From: a virus | Strand: one strand, 5' to 3' | IMG/VR virus record: IMGVR_UViG_3300012022_000006 | Coordinates: 1 to 21,939 of that record | Length of the DNA: 21,939 bases | The notes under the pieces: model-generated | The model's database searches: none | The model's input: the letters and a program-made list of their open reading frames with translations, nothing else | What the model was told of the DNA's origin: nothing | Shown: one piece after another, positions 11,729 to 21,199 of the stretch | Numbering within the stretch: position 1 is the first letter of the stretch | How the letters are laid out: the number at the start of each line of letters is the position of its first letter | Position numbers and translations under genes: made by a program

Positions 11729-13375
11729 ATGGCAACCACCAACGAACTGAAAGCCGCTCTGACGCAAGTCTTCAAGGTATCCGTACCTGGCGGCATTTCG
11801 GGAATGTACGCCACCTCGATCGATCTGTTCTTCCGCAAGAAGAGCAGCTCGTTCGGGCTGGAACTCTGCCTCATCGAGCTAACCGATGGGCAGCCTGACA
11901 CCTCCAAGGTGGTGCCGAACTCCACAGTTCGTGTCGCCGCCGAGGGCGTGAAGGTTTCCGAAGATGGCACGGTCGCTACCAACTTCAAGTTCTCGACCCC
12001 AGTATGGCTGGTCTCCGGCAACCGCTACGCGTTCGCTCTGCGCGCGCTTGGCGGTTCGCCAGACTTCACCATCTGGACTGGCTTGAATGGTGCAACTGAC
12101 ATCGCCACCGGCAAGACGATCTCTTCCAACCCGCTGTCCGAATCGGCGTACTTCGCCAAGAGCACTGCGGACTGGGCTGAGATCCCGAACGAAGACATCA
12201 AGTACAGGCTGTATCGCGCGAAGTTCAACACTTCCGGCGCTACCGCTGTGCTGCGCAAGGGCAACACCGAGTTGTTCCAGCTGAAGAACGTCCGCTACGC
12301 TACCGGCTTCCCGGACTTGATTCCAGGCGACGAAGTGTTCGGAACCGACGCCAACGGCATGCGCGACACGAGTCGTTATGCCAAGGTTGTCGCGTTCGAT
12401 GACGTAAACAACATCCTGTACCTGCGCAACTCGACCGGCAACTTCGCAGCGAATGCGGACCTGACGTTCGTTCGTTCCAGCGAAGAAGGTGCAACGAAGT
12501 CCAACAACGCCATCACGGGTGTCGTGGCTCAGGCTCAGATCAGCAACCTGCTGGACTACCCTATCCATGCCGTGGTTCCGAAGATCGGCGACAAGACCAA
12601 CTCTCTGGGTTCGGTTCAGTTCGACTTCCGAGGCACCTACAAGGAAGGCTCCACGCTGGTTCCGGTCAAGGAAATCCAGGCAGGTGACTGGAAGACAGTC
12701 ACGAACCAGGAAGAAGCCGAGTTCTACGACAAGACCCGCTACGTGCTGTCACGTTCGTCGGAAGTCGCTCAGTTGCAGGGCAACAGCTCTGTCGAACTAC
12801 GCGCAACACTGTCGTCGAACACTGACTTCATCAGCCCGGTCCTTGACCTGCGCGAGCGCTCGCTGATCGGCATCAAGAACCTCATCAACGCCAGCACCAA
12901 CAACGAAGACACCATCTACGGCGGCGCGCGTACCAAGTACGTCTCCAAGATCGTGACACTGGCTGACGGTCAGGAAGCGGAAGATCTCAAGGTCTTCATC
13001 ACCGCCTACAAGCCGCCGCGTACGAACATCTACGTCTACGCCAAGCTCTGGAACTCCGAAGACACTGACGCGTTCGACACGAAGAAGTGGACTCTGATGA
13101 CTCAGGTCACCGACTCCACTCTGTTCTCGAACCCGAAGAACGTCGAGGACTACCGCGAGTACGAGTTTGACCTGCCTTCCGTAGAGCAGTCGACTGGCGC
13201 AGCATGGTGTCCGAACCTTGGCGTCGACAACGTGCAGTACCGCAACGCAGCAGGCGGCGTGTTCGTTGGCTACAAGAAGTTCTCCATCAAGGTTGTCATG
13301 TCGGTTGCGACCGATGAAGACGCCTACAACTATCCGCGTCTGTCTGACGTTCGCGGTATTGCCCTGCAGAAATGA
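11729..13375 (+). CDS. Virion structural protein, cyanophage-type beta-sandwich family
   Basis: In this 548-aa protein, residues about 22-165 (GMYATSIDLFFRKKS, SEDGTVATNFKFSTPVWL, EDIKYRLYRAKF) match a region I know from structural proteins of cyanophage-like myoviruses. There it occurs near or within DUF4815-type proteins. The rest of the chain keeps the family style, with DFISPVLDLRERS in the middle and DYREYEFDLPS late. No signal peptide, membrane segment or enzymatic motif is visible. The gene follows the DUF4815 gene by nine bases and overlaps the next by ATGA, so the two large proteins are probably co-produced and may contact each other in the tail or baseplate. In some relatives the two may be one polypeptide; this is from memory and unverified. 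Exact role is unknown. Confidence 0.65.
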   Translation: MATTNELKAALTQVFKVSVPGGISGMYATSIDLFFRKKSSSFGLELCLIELTDGQPDTSKVVPNSTVRVAAEGVKVSEDGTVATNFKFSTPVWLVSGNRYAFALRALGGSPDFTIWTGLNGATDIATGKTISSNPLSESAYFAKSTADWAEIPNEDIKYRLYRAKFNTSGATAVLRKGNTELFQLKNVRYATGFPDLIPGDEVFGTDANGMRDTSRYAKVVAFDDVNNILYLRNSTGNFAANADLTFVRSSEEGATKSNNAITGVVAQAQISNLLDYPIHAVVPKIGDKTNSLGSVQFDFRGTYKEGSTLVPVKEIQAGDWKTVTNQEEAEFYDKTRYVLSRSSEVAQLQGNSSVELRATLSSNTDFISPVLDLRERSLIGIKNLINASTNNEDTIYGGARTKYVSKIVTLADGQEAEDLKVFITAYKPPRTNIYVYAKLWNSEDTDAFDTKKWTLMTQVTDSTLFSNPKNVEDYREYEFDLPSVEQSTGAAWCPNLGVDNVQYRNAAGGVFVGYKKFSIKVVMSVATDEDAYNYPRLSDVRGIALQK

Positions 13376-13587
13376 CCGAAGAGATCACTCGAGCAGCTGA
13401 AGCCCCCGACTTCCTTGTCGAAAGGAATGTCGGGGCACTGCTAAATACCAATGCTAAAGCCCTCTCTGCGTATCGTATGCAGAGAGCGGAAGTACGCAAA
13501 GCTCGAGAGAACTCCGAACGACTTGATCGACTGGAGGCGGGCTTTGACGAAATCAAGTCGCTACTACTTCAGGTGCTCAACAAATGA
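13372..13587 (+). CDS. Small helical protein, unknown function
   Basis: This 71-aa protein starts in an ATGA overlap with the 548-aa gene and ends in an ATGA overlap with the fibre gene. The second half (residues about 38-70) is charged and helical, with a heptad-like pattern ending RLEAGFDEIKSLLLQVLNK, so it may form a coiled coil. Its location just before an S74-type fibre gene would suit a fibre attachment or assembly helper, but that is inference. The coding DNA also holds a strong hairpin and a CTAAATA box, so this stretch may serve regulation as well as coding. I do not recognise the family. Confidence 0.6.
   Translation: MTEEITRAAEAPDFLVERNVGALLNTNAKALSAYRMQRAEVRKARENSERLDRLEAGFDEIKSLLLQVLNK
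13402..13436 (+). promoter_or_regulatory. Strong imperfect RNA hairpin within the 71-aa gene
   Basis: The left arm GCCCC-(C)-GAC-TTCCTT pairs with AAGGAA-(T)-GTC-GGGGC around the loop GTCGA. This gives 14 pairs with one bulged base on each side. No T-run follows, so it is not a classic intrinsic terminator. A CTAAATA box begins five bases downstream. Confidence 0.5.
13441..13447 (+). promoter_or_regulatory. Putative T4-type late promoter before the S74 fibre gene
   Basis: CTAAATA lies within the 71-aa gene, right after a strong hairpin and about 135 bases before the fibre start. It could start a fibre-cassette transcript. Confidence 0.5.
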
Positions 13588-14973: not shown

Positions 14974-17900
14974 ATGGCGACTCCTAATACCAGTATCTCC
15001 TCGCTGGCTATGTCGGATGTCAACGTCGAACTGACCTATCCCGCGAACAACGCGCTGGCGATGAACGATGGCATCTTCCGAAGCCTGTCTGGCATTGAAG
15101 CCCGACAGGTCACAGACACAGTCATCAACCTCTCGGATCTGTCGAACAAGACAGCCTTCGGCGGCATCATCTCTGCGAACTCGTCGAACGTCATTTCGTA
15201 TGGCGTGATCGAGCGCGAGATCAACATGCTCGCCAACACCGACATGTTCGACTGCGACGTGCAGTGGACTGCGAACCTGATCTCAGGCGCGGCAGGCACT
15301 CTCACGACCAGGAACAAGCAGGCTTCTTACAAGGTCGTCGGCGTTCAGGAACAGAACGTGACCTCCAACGTGTTCGTGACGGCTACCCTTTCCTACAAGG
15401 GAAAGCTGATCGGCACCGCACAGAAGTACATCAGCTTCACCATCAACTCGCTGCCGCCGATGTTGTTCGTCAACGGCAACACGAACGTCGAGTCGGTGAA
15501 GTTTGAACCGACCTCTATCGCAACCACGCTGACCGCGACCGCCAACGTTCCTGGCGGACAGCTGCTATTCCGCGTCGATCCGATGGACGCAGGTGTACTC
15601 ATCTCCGGCAACACCGTCAGCCTCTCTGCCCAGGCGCAGCAGGCGGGCACCGACAACGTGCGCAACTACTCGGTCCTGACCGAACTGTTGTTCAACAACC
15701 AGATCATTGCACAGGACCTGAAGAACGTTAGCCTGCGCGCGCTGTACGCTATCCCGGACATCAACTTGACCGTCCCAGCGAGCACCAACAACGTGTTCGC
15801 GAACGTCGGTTTGGTACGCTCGTCGCTGACGATCAGCGGATCTCACAATGTCCCTGGAGCGAACCTGACATGGACTGCAACCAAGGTCTCGGGCGATGAC
15901 GCTTCTCTGATCGTTGCAGCCAACCGTGGTTCTGCAAACCTAACTGTCAGCATTGCTGACGGAGACTTCGGCGCACGCAAGGCGGTCTACGACGTTGTGG
16001 CTGCCCTAGCCTACGCCAATGGTCAGCCGATCACCTCCAAGACTACCCGCCTGACCCTGCGCGCCGCTGCGTATGGAATGCAGGTCAGCTCTGCCAACGA
16101 CACACAGAGTGGATACACTGCCCAGACGGCGGTAGCTTCTGCGACGGTCGCGTTCCAGGCAGGAACGCTGACATGGACGGTTGCACGCGTATCGGGCGAC
16201 ACCGCCGTGTTCAGCACTGCCAACAGCGGAACGAGCGGCAGCGCATCTTTCAACCTGTCGACTTCTGGAGTCGGGACCAAGACCAGTGTCTACCGCCTGA
16301 CCCCGACACTGACGTTTGACGGCGTGGTGATGTACAACGCTCCGTTCGACGTTTCGATGACTGCTCAGCAGAACGCATACACGTTCGCTCTCAGCGGCGC
16401 GACTGTCAACACGCAGGTCGGCGAAGCTCCTGTTTCGTCAAGGATCATCACGACTGCCACGCACAACGTGACGGGCGGCACTCTGTTGTTCTCGAAGTCG
16501 AGCAGCGCAGGCGTGTTGACTTCCAACTCAACGTCTGGCACGGTCACCTACAGCAACAACACGATCGGCATCGACAACTACACGCTCAGCGTGGAGCTGC
16601 GTGACGCCAACAACCGTACCATCGAGACCAAGACCAGCGCACAGACGCTGCGTGCATACGCGCCTAACCTGACGTTCACGGGTGCGAACACGCTCACCAC
16701 TACCGGTTTCAGCGACCAATCGGCTTCGCTCACTTCCAATGTTCGTGTCGGCGTCGTTGGTGCGAACACCCTCGCCGTCACCGCGCAGCTGTTGGTCGGT
16801 TCGACGCTGACATTCAACGCGAGCGGCAACTCGACTCTGCAGACTGCAACCCTGTCGACCAGCCGCACGACTGTCGGAACCAACGAAGGTACGTATCGCC
16901 TGACGGGCACCGTCAACTACTTTGGCGTTCTGTACTCCAAGACTTGGGACGCAACTCTGTCGGTCACCAAGGACGACGCACAGTTCGCAGTCACGGGTAG
17001 CGGACAGACACTGAGCAGCTTCAACTTCCCAGTTGTCGCCAATGGCGTCGTCAACGCAAGCCACGTGATTCCAGGCGGCATCGTATCCTGGTCACGTTCT
17101 GGCACAGGCACTGTCTCTGCAGTTCCGGTACAGAACAACTCGCAGCTGGTGTTCAACACCTCTCAGGGTTCGGTCGGCTCGGCTTCGGCTGCGCAGACTG
17201 TCACGGCTACGCTGCGTGACGCGGACGGCAACTACGTTGACCAGAAGTCGGTCGTCGTCAACACCTCTGCCACGGTGAACAACCCGGCGCTGGTGCTGAA
17301 CGGTCCGACCTCCAACGTCGTCACCAACACGTTCTTCGCTGCGGCTACGGTCATCGCTACTCCTTCGGTGGCGGCAGCACTGACCGGTCACACCTACCGC
17401 TTCGACTACGCACCAACTTCCGGCGCTCTGTCTAGCGTTACTTCCAACAGCTCGGCAGTCAACCTTTACGCACAGTTTGACGGCGCAGGCGAAACTCGTG
17501 GCTCTTACAACGTGGTGTGTAGCGTGATCCTGAATGGACAGACCATCGCCACTGCGTCCAAGAACATCACAGTTGCTGCGGTTTGCCCGGCTCCGACTCT
17601 CGAGTACGCAGGCAACCCTTCGGCGAGCAGCGGGTCGTTCAACTTCCCAGTGAACAACTGGGCTTGGTTCGACGCGGCAACAACTCCTGCCGGTGGCACG
17701 TTCAGCTGGTCCTGGAACCTTGTGTCAGGCGTACAGGCAACCAACATCTACACCGAGAACAACAACAGCCGACTGGTTGTGCAGAACAGCCAGAGCGACT
17801 ACGGTGGAAAGACGTCTACCTATGATGTGACGTGTACGTATCGCACGCCGAACGGAACTGTGCTCGGAACGCGCACGCAGCGCATCTCGACGTACAGCGA

Positions 17901-18606
17901 GCGCTACAACCCCAACCTGAGCCTGAACTATGTCAACGGCAACTCTGCTGGCGCTTCTGGTTTTGATGAGCGTCTTAACGCCCCTGTTAGTCTTCAGGCG
18001 TCCACCAACCCAGCGCTAGGCGGACACCAGTTCCGAATTACCCCAGTGTTCGTTGGCGGTAACCTGAACCAAGCAGACTTCGACCTGCGCACTGACTCGG
18101 GTTGGATGACGGTCACGGCGTACAACCTGCGTTCCCAGAACGGAACCAACGCGAAGTCGTCGCAGTACGATCTCTATGTGGACGTCGTTCTGAACGGTCA
18201 GGTGATCTCGGGTCAGGCGGTTCAGCGCACGTACCACACGATCACTCCAGGTTCGGTAAGCGGTGTTGGCAACTTCAACATCTATCGCCAGGTCTGGAAC
18301 GGTACTTCCTCTGCACAGATCTCGTTCAATCCGGACGGCGTCTGCTATGCTACAGATGGTAACCGCACGTGGATGAGTCCGTCGAACCCAGGTGAAGCGG
18401 CGAACTTCGAGGTGTCGTTCAACAACGGCGCTTCGTATCAGGCACTGACCTCGGCAGCCACGATCTCTGTGTCTGCTACAGGTAGCGCGTCGAGGCCATC
18501 GAACGCTCGTCGTCAGGGAACGTACATCATCCGCAACCGCTGGAGCGGCGCAGTGGCGGGCAGCGGAACTTACGACATGTACGTAGAGGTCGGCACGCCG
18601 GTCTAA
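14974..18606 (+). CDS. Giant tandem Ig-like domain fibre/adhesion protein
   Basis: This is a 1210-aa protein. The first 65 residues (SSLAMSDVNVEL ... SLSGIEARQ ... INLSDLSNKT) match a small N-terminal module seen in many phage tail proteins, probably the virion attachment part. Residues 73-1093 then form about ten diverged Ig-like units of 86-115 residues. Each tends to carry 'PGG-x-L-x-[W/F]' in the first half and '[Y]-x-[V/L]-x-x-x-L-x-[Y/F]-x-[N/D]-G' near its end. Examples are NVPGGQLLF, NVPGANLTW, VIPGGIVSW and TPAGGTFSW. Residues 1094-1210 are a distinct C-terminal domain with Trp and Arg residues that could be a tip. It is Ser, Thr and Asn rich with few Lys and Cys. Phage Ig-like domains usually decorate virions and bind cell-surface sugars. 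No good Shine-Dalgarno is visible, so translation is probably coupled. Confidence 0.75.
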   Translation: MATPNTSISSLAMSDVNVELTYPANNALAMNDGIFRSLSGIEARQVTDTVINLSDLSNKTAFGGIISANSSNVISYGVIEREINMLANTDMFDCDVQWTANLISGAAGTLTTRNKQASYKVVGVQEQNVTSNVFVTATLSYKGKLIGTAQKYISFTINSLPPMLFVNGNTNVESVKFEPTSIATTLTATANVPGGQLLFRVDPMDAGVLISGNTVSLSAQAQQAGTDNVRNYSVLTELLFNNQIIAQDLKNVSLRALYAIPDINLTVPASTNNVFANVGLVRSSLTISGSHNVPGANLTWTATKVSGDDASLIVAANRGSANLTVSIADGDFGARKAVYDVVAALAYANGQPITSKTTRLTLRAAAYGMQVSSANDTQSGYTAQTAVASATVAFQAGTLTWTVARVSGDTAVFSTANSGTSGSASFNLSTSGVGTKTSVYRLTPTLTFDGVVMYNAPFDVSMTAQQNAYTFALSGATVNTQVGEAPVSSRIITTATHNVTGGTLLFSKSSSAGVLTSNSTSGTVTYSNNTIGIDNYTLSVELRDANNRTIETKTSAQTLRAYAPNLTFTGANTLTTTGFSDQSASLTSNVRVGVVGANTLAVTAQLLVGSTLTFNASGNSTLQTATLSTSRTTVGTNEGTYRLTGTVNYFGVLYSKTWDATLSVTKDDAQFAVTGSGQTLSSFNFPVVANGVVNASHVIPGGIVSWSRSGTGTVSAVPVQNNSQLVFNTSQGSVGSASAAQTVTATLRDADGNYVDQKSVVVNTSATVNNPALVLNGPTSNVVTNTFFAAATVIATPSVAAALTGHTYRFDYAPTSGALSSVTSNSSAVNLYAQFDGAGETRGSYNVVCSVILNGQTIATASKNITVAAVCPAPTLEYAGNPSASSGSFNFPVNNWAWFDAATTPAGGTFSWSWNLVSGVQATNIYTENNNSRLVVQNSQSDYGGKTSTYDVTCTYRTPNGTVLGTRTQRISTYSERYNPNLSLNYVNGNSAGASGFDERLNAPVSLQASTNPALGGHQFRITPVFVGGNLNQADFDLRTDSGWMTVTAYNLRSQNGTNAKSSQYDLYVDVVLNGQVISGQAVQRTYHTITPGSVSGVGNFNIYRQVWNGTSSAQISFNPDGVCYATDGNRTWMSPSNPGEAANFEVSFNNGASYQALTSAATISVSATGSASRPSNARRQGTYIIRNRWSGAVAGSGTYDMYVEVGTPV
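15190..18252 (+). repeat. Ten tandem diverged Ig-like domain repeats
   Basis: Approximate unit borders in residues of the 1210-aa protein are 73-158, 159-259, 260-367, 368-467, 468-563, 564-668, 669-770, 771-872, 873-978 and 979-1093. Units share spacing and a few positions, but little identity, so the array is old. Borders are judged by eye and may be off by about ten residues. Confidence 0.65.
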
Positions 18607-18609
18607 ATA
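18603..18609 (+). promoter_or_regulatory. Putative T4-type late promoter overlapping the Ig-repeat gene stop
   Basis: CTAAATA contains the TAA stop (18604-18606) of the Ig-repeat gene and ends 24 bases before ATG 18634. Its last four bases lie in the left arm of the hairpin at 18606-18630. A start site six or so bases downstream would fall at about 18615-18616, past the left arm. Confidence 0.7.
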
Positions 18610-18630
18610 CTCCTGCAACCCAGGAGTATT
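18606..18630 (+). promoter_or_regulatory. RBS-sequestering hairpin for the 56-aa gene
   Basis: AATACTCCTG (18606-18615) is perfectly complementary to CAGGAGTATT (18621-18630), with a 5-base loop CAACC. The right arm contains the AGGAG ribosome binding site (18622-18626), seven bases before ATG 18634. In mRNA read through from upstream the site would be buried in a 10-bp stem. mRNA starting at the embedded late promoter would lack the left arm and be open. Confidence 0.8.
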
Positions 18631-18633
18631 CCC

Positions 18634-18804
18634 ATGACCATGCAGATTGACAAGAACGACCCAGTCTCCGTCGAGACGGTCAACCGTAAACTGGAATCGT
18701 TCGTAGAAGTTGTCCTCGAGAAGCTGACCGCGCAGCAAGCGACGATCAAGCAGCTGAAGACCCGCCTCCGCGCCGTAGAGAAGGAGCTGGAACCGGGTGG
18801 CTAA
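18634..18804 (+). CDS. 56-aa coiled-coil protein, unknown function
   Basis: This short gene encodes a 56-residue protein beginning MTMQIDKND and ending EPGG. Residues about 16-52 show a heptad pattern of Leu, Val and Ile (VNRKLESFVEVVLEK, then IKQLKTRLRAVEKEL), so a coiled coil is likely. A good AGGAG lies seven bases before ATG 18634, closer to ideal than for the second ATG at 18640, but it is held in a hairpin with a late promoter in the other arm. The stop overlaps the GTG start of the next gene, and its last codons contain that gene's AAGGAG site. Coding potential is supported by this organisation and by codon use matching the neighbours. I do not recognise it. A small fibre or neck assembly factor, or a regulator, would fit. 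Confidence 0.7.
   Translation: MTMQIDKNDPVSVETVNRKLESFVEVVLEKLTAQQATIKQLKTRLRAVEKELEPGG
18781..18786 (+). promoter_or_regulatory. Ribosome binding site for the GTG-start 287-aa gene
   Basis: AAGGAG lies ten bases before GTG 18797 within the 56-aa gene. It favours GTG 18797 over the ATG seven codons later. Confidence 0.6.
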
Positions 18805-19660
18805 GAAATTCGAGTACATGAGCCAGAACGAGTGGTTGGGCGACGCAACCACTCACTTCATGAAGTCTGGCAGCGCACTACGCAGCCCATCCAATGATCA
18901 AGAGTCACTCGCCAAGTACGTCCCGCGTGAAGCGAACGGCGTCAAGGTCGAGTACGACATCACATTCGAGATTCCGGGCACCGTCAAGGGCTACAAGTTC
19001 AGCGACTTCCTCACCAAGGCACTCTACATCGCTCCGCAGAGTCAGCGCTTCGCAACTGAAGCAGTGACCACGGCGGCGTCGAAGGCGTGCACAGAGGAAG
19101 GTCGTCGCGTGTTCCAGCTGCTGCTCGAGAACATCGAGGACAAGTACATCCTGGACGGCGACGATGACTTCGAGTGCGATGAGATCGTGGTTCTGCCAGG
19201 CACCAACCTGTTGTCGAAAGAGAACGTCGTCGACTTCGACAAGGTCGATGCACTTGTTCGCGGCGGCGCATACGTCAAGATCCACCCGATCACCGAGCGC
19301 ACCTGGGTACAGTACCTGAAGAGCCGCTGGGGTAAGAAGGTCATCCCACCAGAAGCACCGCTCTACCCTATCCTGCGCTCTGCACAGAAGGTCAACTTCA
19401 CCATGTCTTCCGAGACGGGCATCGCAGCGACGATCCTGGGCAAGAAGCTTGGCGTGATCGATCACCCTGAGAAGAAGACTGCGTCCACGTTCCAGCACAT
19501 CTACCAAGGTATGGACCTGGCGCGCAAGAACACCCTCAAGGAAAAGCTGATCGCTGTACTGTCGAACCCGGAGTCAGGCGTCCTGACTACATACCACGAC
19601 GACCCCGTCGAGCGCGTGGGTCGATACTTCGAGTTCATGGTAAGGTATCCGCACAAATGA
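18797..19660 (+). CDS. Conserved-looking enzyme-like protein, possible GT-B-type glycosyltransferase relative
   Basis: This 287-aa soluble protein has no signal peptide or membrane segment. Composition differs from the structural genes: Lys, Glu, His and Cys are frequent and Thr/Asn repeats are absent. Residues about 155-221 (VKIHPITERTWVQYLKSRWG, VIPPEAPLYPILRSAQKV, TMSSETGIAATILGKKLGVI) follow the pattern of the C-terminal half of GT-B-fold sugar or polyol-phosphate transferases: an HP start, a register shift to 'pl..ll..a..v', then SSE...A...GK. This is a fold-level guess. The next gene overlaps by ATGA and also looks enzyme-like, so the pair may act together. It could modify the virion, phage DNA or the host surface. 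It could equally be an unrelated structural or assembly protein. The expected catalytic residues are not secure. Confidence 0.4.
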   Translation: MAKKFEYMSQNEWLGDATTHFMKSGSALRSPSNDQESLAKYVPREANGVKVEYDITFEIPGTVKGYKFSDFLTKALYIAPQSQRFATEAVTTAASKACTEEGRRVFQLLLENIEDKYILDGDDDFECDEIVVLPGTNLLSKENVVDFDKVDALVRGGAYVKIHPITERTWVQYLKSRWGKKVIPPEAPLYPILRSAQKVNFTMSSETGIAATILGKKLGVIDHPEKKTASTFQHIYQGMDLARKNTLKEKLIAVLSNPESGVLTTYHDDPVERVGRYFEFMVRYPHK

Positions 19661-20415
19661 AGTACGTTGTCATCGCCCATCACCACGGCGCTTTCTTGAC
19701 CATCAAGCAGCTGCGCGAGCTCAAGCAAGAGTTCGTCGTGCTGGTGCCACAGACACAGGTCGAGAAGTACTCGACGATGGGCGAAGACATCTTCAAGAAC
19801 TACCTGCCGAATCTGAAGAAGGCAGCCGGCAAAGGCACGCCCGTCTTCACCGCAGACATGCGCGGCAACTTCCTGAACCTGATCGCCACGTGGATGGCGG
19901 AACTGCAGTGCACCGGTCAATGGACCGTGATGCAGGCAGGTTCGCTGCTCCTGTCGACCGACAACGACGTGTCCATCAAGACGCAGTTCGGGCTGGTCAG
20001 TGACCGCGTGCACCCGAAGTTCAAGAAGCTGTACACGATGCTCGGCGAACCCGAGAAGTCGGACAAGATGTACATGCACACGATCTTCGTGAACATGGAC
20101 AAGCGCGACGGCAAGGTGACGGAAGTCCCGAGCGACGCGGTCATGCGCCCGGACATCCTGTACAAGATGTCGTTCGGTCCGTTGTGGTGCCTGCGTCATC
20201 GTCAGATGGTCAAGCACTCAGCTGTCGCCAACTTCTGGATGGAGTCGATCCGCGCAGAGCAGGAGATCGGTGAATGGATCGCCTATCCGTACCACCTCTA
20301 TGGTGAGTACGCGAAGAAGGTCAAGGCGATGATCCCGCCCGTTTCGTTCGAGAACATCATGGCCAACGCCGAGAGTGCTGCCTGGATGCAAGAACTGGTC
20401 GAGCTAGACCTCTAA
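19657..20415 (+). CDS. Enzyme-like protein, possible GT-A/nucleotide-sugar transferase relative
   Basis: This 252-aa soluble protein starts with a strand and turn (KYVVIAHHHGAF) followed by helix and strand (LRELKQEFVVLVP), as in alpha/beta enzymes. Residues about 97-104 read SLLLSTDND, and STDND could be a DxD-like metal site of a GT-A glycosyltransferase, although no more of the family is visible. Further conserved-looking segments are MYMHTIFVNMDKRDG, LWCLRHRQMVKHSAV and EQEIGEWIAYPYHLYGEYAKK. It begins in an ATGA overlap with the previous gene, with AAGG eleven bases upstream. The TAA stop is part of a CTAAATA box. A role as a partner of the 287-aa protein is inferred from the overlap and similar composition. 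Function is not established. Confidence 0.35.
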   Translation: MKYVVIAHHHGAFLTIKQLRELKQEFVVLVPQTQVEKYSTMGEDIFKNYLPNLKKAAGKGTPVFTADMRGNFLNLIATWMAELQCTGQWTVMQAGSLLLSTDNDVSIKTQFGLVSDRVHPKFKKLYTMLGEPEKSDKMYMHTIFVNMDKRDGKVTEVPSDAVMRPDILYKMSFGPLWCLRHRQMVKHSAVANFWMESIRAEQEIGEWIAYPYHLYGEYAKKVKAMIPPVSFENIMANAESAAWMQELVELDL

Positions 20416-20418
20416 ATA
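20412..20418 (+). promoter_or_regulatory. Putative T4-type late promoter for the neck genes
   Basis: CTAAATA overlaps the TAA stop of the upstream gene and precedes ATG 20456 by 37 bases in a real intergenic gap of 40 bases. It would drive gp13 and gp14. Confidence 0.65.
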
Positions 20419-20455: not shown

Positions 20456-21199
20456 ATGGCACGACCTCAAACCCGCGAAGAGTTCAAGGACTACGTTCTT
20501 CGCAAGCTCGGCGCTCCTGTGATTGAGATCAACGTCGACGATTCGCAGGTCGACGACCGCATCGACGAAGCTCTCCTGTACTATGCCGACTATCACTACG
20601 ATGGTTCCGAAGCCGTCTACTACAAGCATCAGATCACAGCCGACGACATCGCCAACAAATACTTGGTGCTGCCCGAGAACATCATCGGCGCGGTCCGTAT
20701 CTTTGACATCGGTTCAGCCCTGACCGCTGGCGGCTTCTTCAACATCCAGTACCAGATCGCGCTGAACGATCTGTACACGCTCACCAGCCAGTCGCTGCTG
20801 CCGTACTACATGGCAGTTCAGTCGCTCGGCGTCATGCAGGAAATCCTCGTCGGCAAGCAGCCGATCCGCTACAACCGCATGGCAGGCAACAAGTTCCACA
20901 TCGACATGAACTGGGACAAGGTCCAGGAAGGACAGTTCTTCATCGTCGAGGCGTACAAGGTCGTTGACCCTGAAGAGTACCCGCAGGTCTGGTCTGATCG
21001 CTGGCTGCAGCGCTACGCTACCGCGCTCGTGGGCACGCAGTGGGCGACCAACCTGATCAAGTTCCAGGGTCTTCAGCTCCCGGGCGGCGTCCAGTTCAAT
21101 GGTGAGAGCATGCTTGCCCGTCACCAGAAGGATCAGGACGACCTGGAGAAGGAGATGCTCTTTGGCTACGGTCTCCCACCGATGGACATGATTGGGTGA
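20456..21199 (+). CDS. 13: Neck protein, gp13-like
   Basis: This 247-aa protein begins MARPQTREEFKDYVLRKLG, followed by APVIEINVDDSQVDDRIDEA and LLYYADYHYDGSEAVYYKH, a pattern diagnostic of gp13-type neck proteins in cyanophage-like T4 relatives. T4 gp13 (309 aa) forms the neck ring with gp14 at the head portal after DNA packaging, closing the head for tail attachment. This version is shorter than T4 gp13, as in cyanophages. The C-terminus (DLEKEMLFGYGLPPMDM) is typical of that shorter form. The start is set by the family N-terminus. The Shine-Dalgarno is weak and a late-promoter box lies upstream. The immediate gp14-like neighbour confirms the assignment. Confidence 0.85.
   Translation: MARPQTREEFKDYVLRKLGAPVIEINVDDSQVDDRIDEALLYYADYHYDGSEAVYYKHQITADDIANKYLVLPENIIGAVRIFDIGSALTAGGFFNIQYQIALNDLYTLTSQSLLPYYMAVQSLGVMQEILVGKQPIRYNRMAGNKFHIDMNWDKVQEGQFFIVEAYKVVDPEEYPQVWSDRWLQRYATALVGTQWATNLIKFQGLQLPGGVQFNGESMLARHQKDQDDLEKEMLFGYGLPPMDMIG

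Follow-up and report, generated by a model that had tools for sequence, protein, structure and literature searches.

The sequence of the window (the whole 21,939-nucleotide stretch analysed here) marks it as a structural cluster of T4-like type. The nearest named phage, to which it is related, is Stenotrophomonas phage DLP6, 67% identical at the nucleotide level across part of the region. By PHROG matches, the genes at 710 and 4593 encode baseplate wedge proteins, and that at 20456 a gp13-like head-tail adaptor. A 152-aa ORF at 313-771 extends across position 710, where the baseplate gene starts; it matched the homing endonuclease family PHROG_314 as well as the NUMOD3 motif of Pfam, and looks like a piece of a homing endonuclease. 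We focus on a 56-aa gene of this cluster and on its leader (Table 1). About 30 viral contigs encode a homologue of the 56-aa protein, as does DLP6 (AAY80_001); a rescan with a wider alignment returned nearly the same contigs, plus a new one (L396), and the folded leaders come from the first set. The protein matched no Pfam or PHROG family and has no relative in bacterial or archaeal genome contigs, nor any convincing one among solved structures, where only generic coiled coils were returned. Its upstream neighbour, the 1210-aa protein, gave no Pfam match. Used as sole query, the 287-aa protein found no viral contigs; an alignment query for it found L362-L365.

Table 1. Features of the 56-aa gene leader and its surroundings (window coordinates).
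Feature	Position	Strand	Remarks
1210-aa gene upstream of hairpin	14974..18606	+	fibre-like by position
Late-promoter box CTAAATA	18603..18609	+	T4-like, gp55-type; predicted +1 at 18615
Hairpin left arm AATACTCCTG	18606..18615	+	RNA from 18615 retains only its last base
Hairpin loop CAACC	18616..18620	+	direct reading and folding
Hairpin right arm CAGGAGTATT	18621..18630	+	holds Shine-Dalgarno (SD) AGGAG, 18622-18626
56-aa gene	18634..18804	+	ATG 18634; probable coiled coil, KLESFVEVV core
287-aa gene (phrog_26179)	18797..19660	+	overlaps 3′ end of 56-aa gene
Second CTAAATACTCC late box	20412..20418	+	precedes gp13-like neck gene; comparison site, outside the device

Direct reading of the sequence placed the late box, both arms, the AGGAG and ATG 18634 exactly where the original prediction had put them. 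The hairpin has 10 perfect base pairs, among them those of AGGAG with CTCCT, and its left arm begins inside the box. The spacer from AGGAG to the ATG is 7 nt, and the stem ends 3 nt short of this start codon. The stop codon of the 1210-aa gene (TAA, 18604-18606) lies within the late box and touches the base of the stem. The CTAAATACTCC box at 20412 has no complementary SD arm. Elsewhere in the window, at 13441-13486, a CTAAATA box inside a 71-aa ORF (13372-13587) is followed by an 8-bp hairpin, CTCTCTGC/GCAGAGAG; the DLP6 counterpart of this ORF also has a box, at 164314.

Apart from the hairpin at 18606-18630, the window has no perfect 10-bp hairpin with a loop of 3-8 nt. Dinucleotide-shuffled windows contained 0.15 such hairpins on average, and 12 among 100 contained at least one, so that the presence of some 10-bp hairpin is unremarkable alone. 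What stands out is its placement, as seen from the strand bias of late boxes, the local fold and the cost of opening the SD. The + strand has 8 copies of TAAATA and the − strand none (0.7 expected); for CTAAATA the counts are 7 and 0. The local fold has a z-score of −2.75, an equal stability being reached in 3 of 200 shuffles. Among the 13 window starts examined, none is as occluded as ATG 18634, whose SD costs 12.2 kcal/mol to open; the other 12 range from 0.5 to 8.5 kcal/mol, the highest of them being that of the 287-aa gene at 18797. In DLP6, 2 of 209 ORF starts reached 12 kcal/mol, the ORFs being called by a simple script. At DLP6 49803 (L283), a 13.7 kcal/mol hairpin, CTCCGGGAG...CTCCCGGAG, covers an SD without a late box, close to where the gene for FAD-dependent thymidylate synthase is annotated to begin (49818). 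Among 124 viral-contig sites of the form CTAAATA...GGAG...ATG, which come from largely unrelated contigs, look mostly like chance matches and serve solely as a null, none had a stem of at least 5 bp between the box region and the SD.

To compare the two RNAs expected at this locus, both leaders were folded. The predicted SD-opening cost was 12.2-12.4 kcal/mol in read-through leaders, with a probability of about 0 that the SD is unpaired, versus 1.9-2.5 kcal/mol in RNA starting at 18614-18617. The predicted +1 is 18615, the final base of the left arm, because the published late box of phage Aeh1, CTAAATA, begins at −12 (PMC1524935). Anatomy and folding together support the proposal that the ribosome binding site (RBS) is hidden on read-through RNA and freed on RNA from the late promoter. 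We consider it likely that the leader acts in cis as an RNA switch like those of T4 e, soc and I-TevI, in which RBS occlusion is relieved by a promoter located inside the hairpin. On RNA entering from upstream, the AGGAG-CTCCT pairing would keep initiation at ATG 18634 low. A gp55-type late RNA polymerase would use CTAAATA and start at about 18615, thereby omitting nine of the ten left-arm bases, and the resulting 19-nt leader, GCAACCCAGGAGTATTCCC, would be open and translated. The 56-aa gene should then be well translated mainly from its own late transcript, which the 287-aa gene would share. What the analysis shows is the anatomy, the predicted energies, the pairing kept in one relative and the same anatomy in T4; promoter use, the 5′ end and repression are inferred.

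When folded here, the T4 e leader (TATAAATACCTTC...TAGGAGGTATTATG) and the T4 soc leader showed the same plan as the window, and in both the upstream stop codon adjoins the left arm. The device as originally proposed is also supported by two reviews (PMC2988022, PMC3014915). The e gene (lysozyme) resembles the window gene in having a late box in the left arm, the SD in the right arm and the upstream stop beside the stem. Its late 5′ end drops the left arm (PMC3014915), the corresponding feature here being the predicted +1 at 18615. Structured e transcripts are reported to yield about 100-fold less lysozyme (PMC3014915). The e gene differs in being a lysis gene on early/middle read-through mRNA, whereas the window gene lies in a structural cluster, and in having two late boxes instead of one. 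For soc, a virion protein gene, the late box is likewise upstream and the left arm pairs with the SD region, but the predicted stem runs through the ATG, while that of the window stops 3 nt before it. In the I-TevI, segB and Aeh1 mobE leaders a hairpin hides the RBS, and the left arm is absent from late transcripts (PMC2988022). The likeness to the window is here taken from published descriptions, and the Aeh1 late box also reads CTAAATA (PMC1524935). These leaders control homing endonucleases, in contrast to the structural-cluster gene of the window.

Among relatives, the IMG/VR contig L003 has the same gene order, with homologues of the 56-aa (65% identity), 287-aa (64%), 252-aa (43%) and gp13 (74%) proteins. 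It keeps the late box and the stem (CTAAATACTCCAGAGaaccaatgCTCTGGAGTGTTttATG). Compared to the window, pair 9 of its stem has changed from T-A to A-T in a compensatory way, one pair has become G-U, the stem is longer by two pairs with none broken, and the loop is rewritten. Folding gave an SD-opening cost of 15.4 kcal/mol for read-through RNA versus 1.6-2.7 kcal/mol for promoter-derived RNA. The compensatory change, covariation being tested by this one relative, backs the proposed device alongside the T4 leaders and reviews. It also bears on the idea that the ACTCC extension of the late box is complementary to the SD (GGAGT) by coincidence or constraint, without regulatory effect. The 20412 box, which reads CTAAATACTCC with no partner arm, and the 12 shuffled windows holding some 10-bp hairpin are in keeping with such a coincidence; the compensatory and added pairs around a rewritten loop, the outlier SD-opening cost and the layout shared with e and soc make it improbable. 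L003 is relevant, too, to a role of the hairpin in terminating the upstream mRNA or protecting its 3′ end. The hairpin does sit right at the upstream stop codon, and the L003 stem is followed by TTTT, but the window stem is followed by CCC with no T run, and we regard this role as very unlikely. As an intrinsic terminator the window hairpin was rejected, since no T run follows the stem and a terminator scan finds none there.

Most other relatives have the box without the stem. In AT-rich relatives with the 56-aa gene, a TAAATA box is found upstream in nearly all, and the stem in none; the box without the stem is what most of the remaining homologues (L004-L031) show, at SD-opening costs of 0.6-4.4 kcal/mol. 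DLP6, L363 and L365 have neither late box nor stem ahead of their 56-aa homologue. The expectation that relatives keeping the gene would keep the stem thus held for L003, but not for DLP6, L363/L365 or the AT-rich relatives, and the stem is therefore clade-specific. Because most homologues have a box without a stem, and DLP6, L363 and L365 neither, the box looks old and the hairpin looks like a local addition. In DLP6 the gene order is identical (57-aa gene, 287-aa-like gene, next gene, neck proteins), AAY80_001 and its neighbours being orthologous. Unlike the window, AAY80_001 is preceded by a different upstream-gene end. The upstream gene ends in GSGTY(D/N)xYxEVGxPV in the window and L003, and differently in DLP6 and L363/L365. 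Since these 3′ ends differ, the box and hairpin may have arrived together with a swapped fibre end. DLP6 encodes gp55 and gp33 homologues (PMC5349666) and has 8 CTAAATA boxes on the + strand and 2 on the − strand; both DLP6 (3452) and L003 (2184) retain a late box upstream of gp13.

Viral contigs were also scanned for the same hairpin form, with the pattern TAAATACTCC-N4-30-GGAGTRTT, and at least 119 sites were found. Among the matches listed, 80 of 119 had an ATG no more than 7 nt downstream, compared with 24 of 60 control sites, the control having a single left-arm base changed and being scanned to the end. Pairs 9-10, which the pattern does not impose, were paired in 49 of the matches listed, versus 23 after cross-shuffling (sd 4.8). 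Sites without an ATG, again among the matches listed, also showed extra pairing (29 versus 13), so the survey partly reflects other hairpins. Where stems reached at least 10 bp, 11 of the 22 distinct downstream ORFs among the matches listed fit a GIY-YIG motif by a simple pattern. PHROG matches among the ORFs scanned were to homing endonucleases (L072, L102, L116), an HNH endonuclease (L075) and tail-tube families (L101, L105). The design thus serves homing endonucleases, as in T4, as well as late structural genes. Many GIY-YIG-like homing endonuclease genes carry a TAAATACTCC...GGAGTATT hairpin leader, with variable stems and loops (L072:2329-3073, L102:1101-1752, L089:2408-3077, L133, L093 and others). 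The tail-tube genes L101:2106-2678 and L105:9424-10177 have hairpins of the same form, of 14 and 11 bp. As long hairpins of this form mainly precede homing endonuclease genes, the window leader might be the remnant of a lost endonuclease cassette that left its hairpin promoter behind. No endonuclease remnant is seen between 18603 and 18797, and L003, at 65% protein identity, retains the stem; such an origin has little probability.

The original prediction further held that the 56-aa gene is timed separately from its structural neighbours. This is unsupported, though not refuted: the gene sits inside the structural cluster, other genes of the cluster have late boxes of their own, and the setting of the known T4 cases, late genes carried on long early/middle transcripts (PMC2988022), is not established here. 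The flanking genes are late structural genes; co-directional genes upstream could supply early/middle read-through. Because the upstream genes are structural, the read-through RNA into the 56-aa gene is probably late too, and dosage control fits better than timing.

A terminating ribosome could act on the same stem, since the upstream stop codon lies in its base. One may thus imagine translational coupling, where the stem blocks independent initiation and a ribosome that finishes translating the 1210-aa gene at UAA 18604-18606 sits on the left arm, exposing the SD and making the 56-aa product proportional to the upstream protein, plus the output of the late promoter. With the ribosome edge at 18616-18619, folding indeed lowered the opening cost from 12.2 to 1.1-1.2 kcal/mol, and the stop codon has the same position in L003. 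However, in T4 e the nudE stop lies directly ahead of a stem of the same type, yet about 100-fold repression was reported (PMC3014915). In DLP6, moreover, the two genes are close together without any hairpin, which means that coupling does not need one. Coupling as the main role seems rather unlikely. The structural nature of the upstream genes, with the stop codon in the stem base, leads us to favour a dosage role with possible coupling. Our tentative reading, held at somewhat less than even confidence, is that a hairpin placed between two late genes uncouples the dose of the small protein, not its timing, from the long late mRNA, the terminating upstream ribosome being a second input. Its most likely purpose would be to let the 56-aa gene's own promoter, and not the long late upstream-gene mRNA, set how much 56-aa protein is made; the overlapping 287-aa gene would perhaps be under the same dose control.

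We conclude that a device familiar from T4 probably recurs at a new site, a 56-residue structural-cluster gene of a T4-like phage. It extends the promoter-in-hairpin device to a DLP6-like phage lineage of 58% GC and to a gene of the structural cluster. There, the textbook reason for the device, silencing on early mRNA, is not obviously applicable; should the read-through RNA prove late, the device would serve as a dosage valve.
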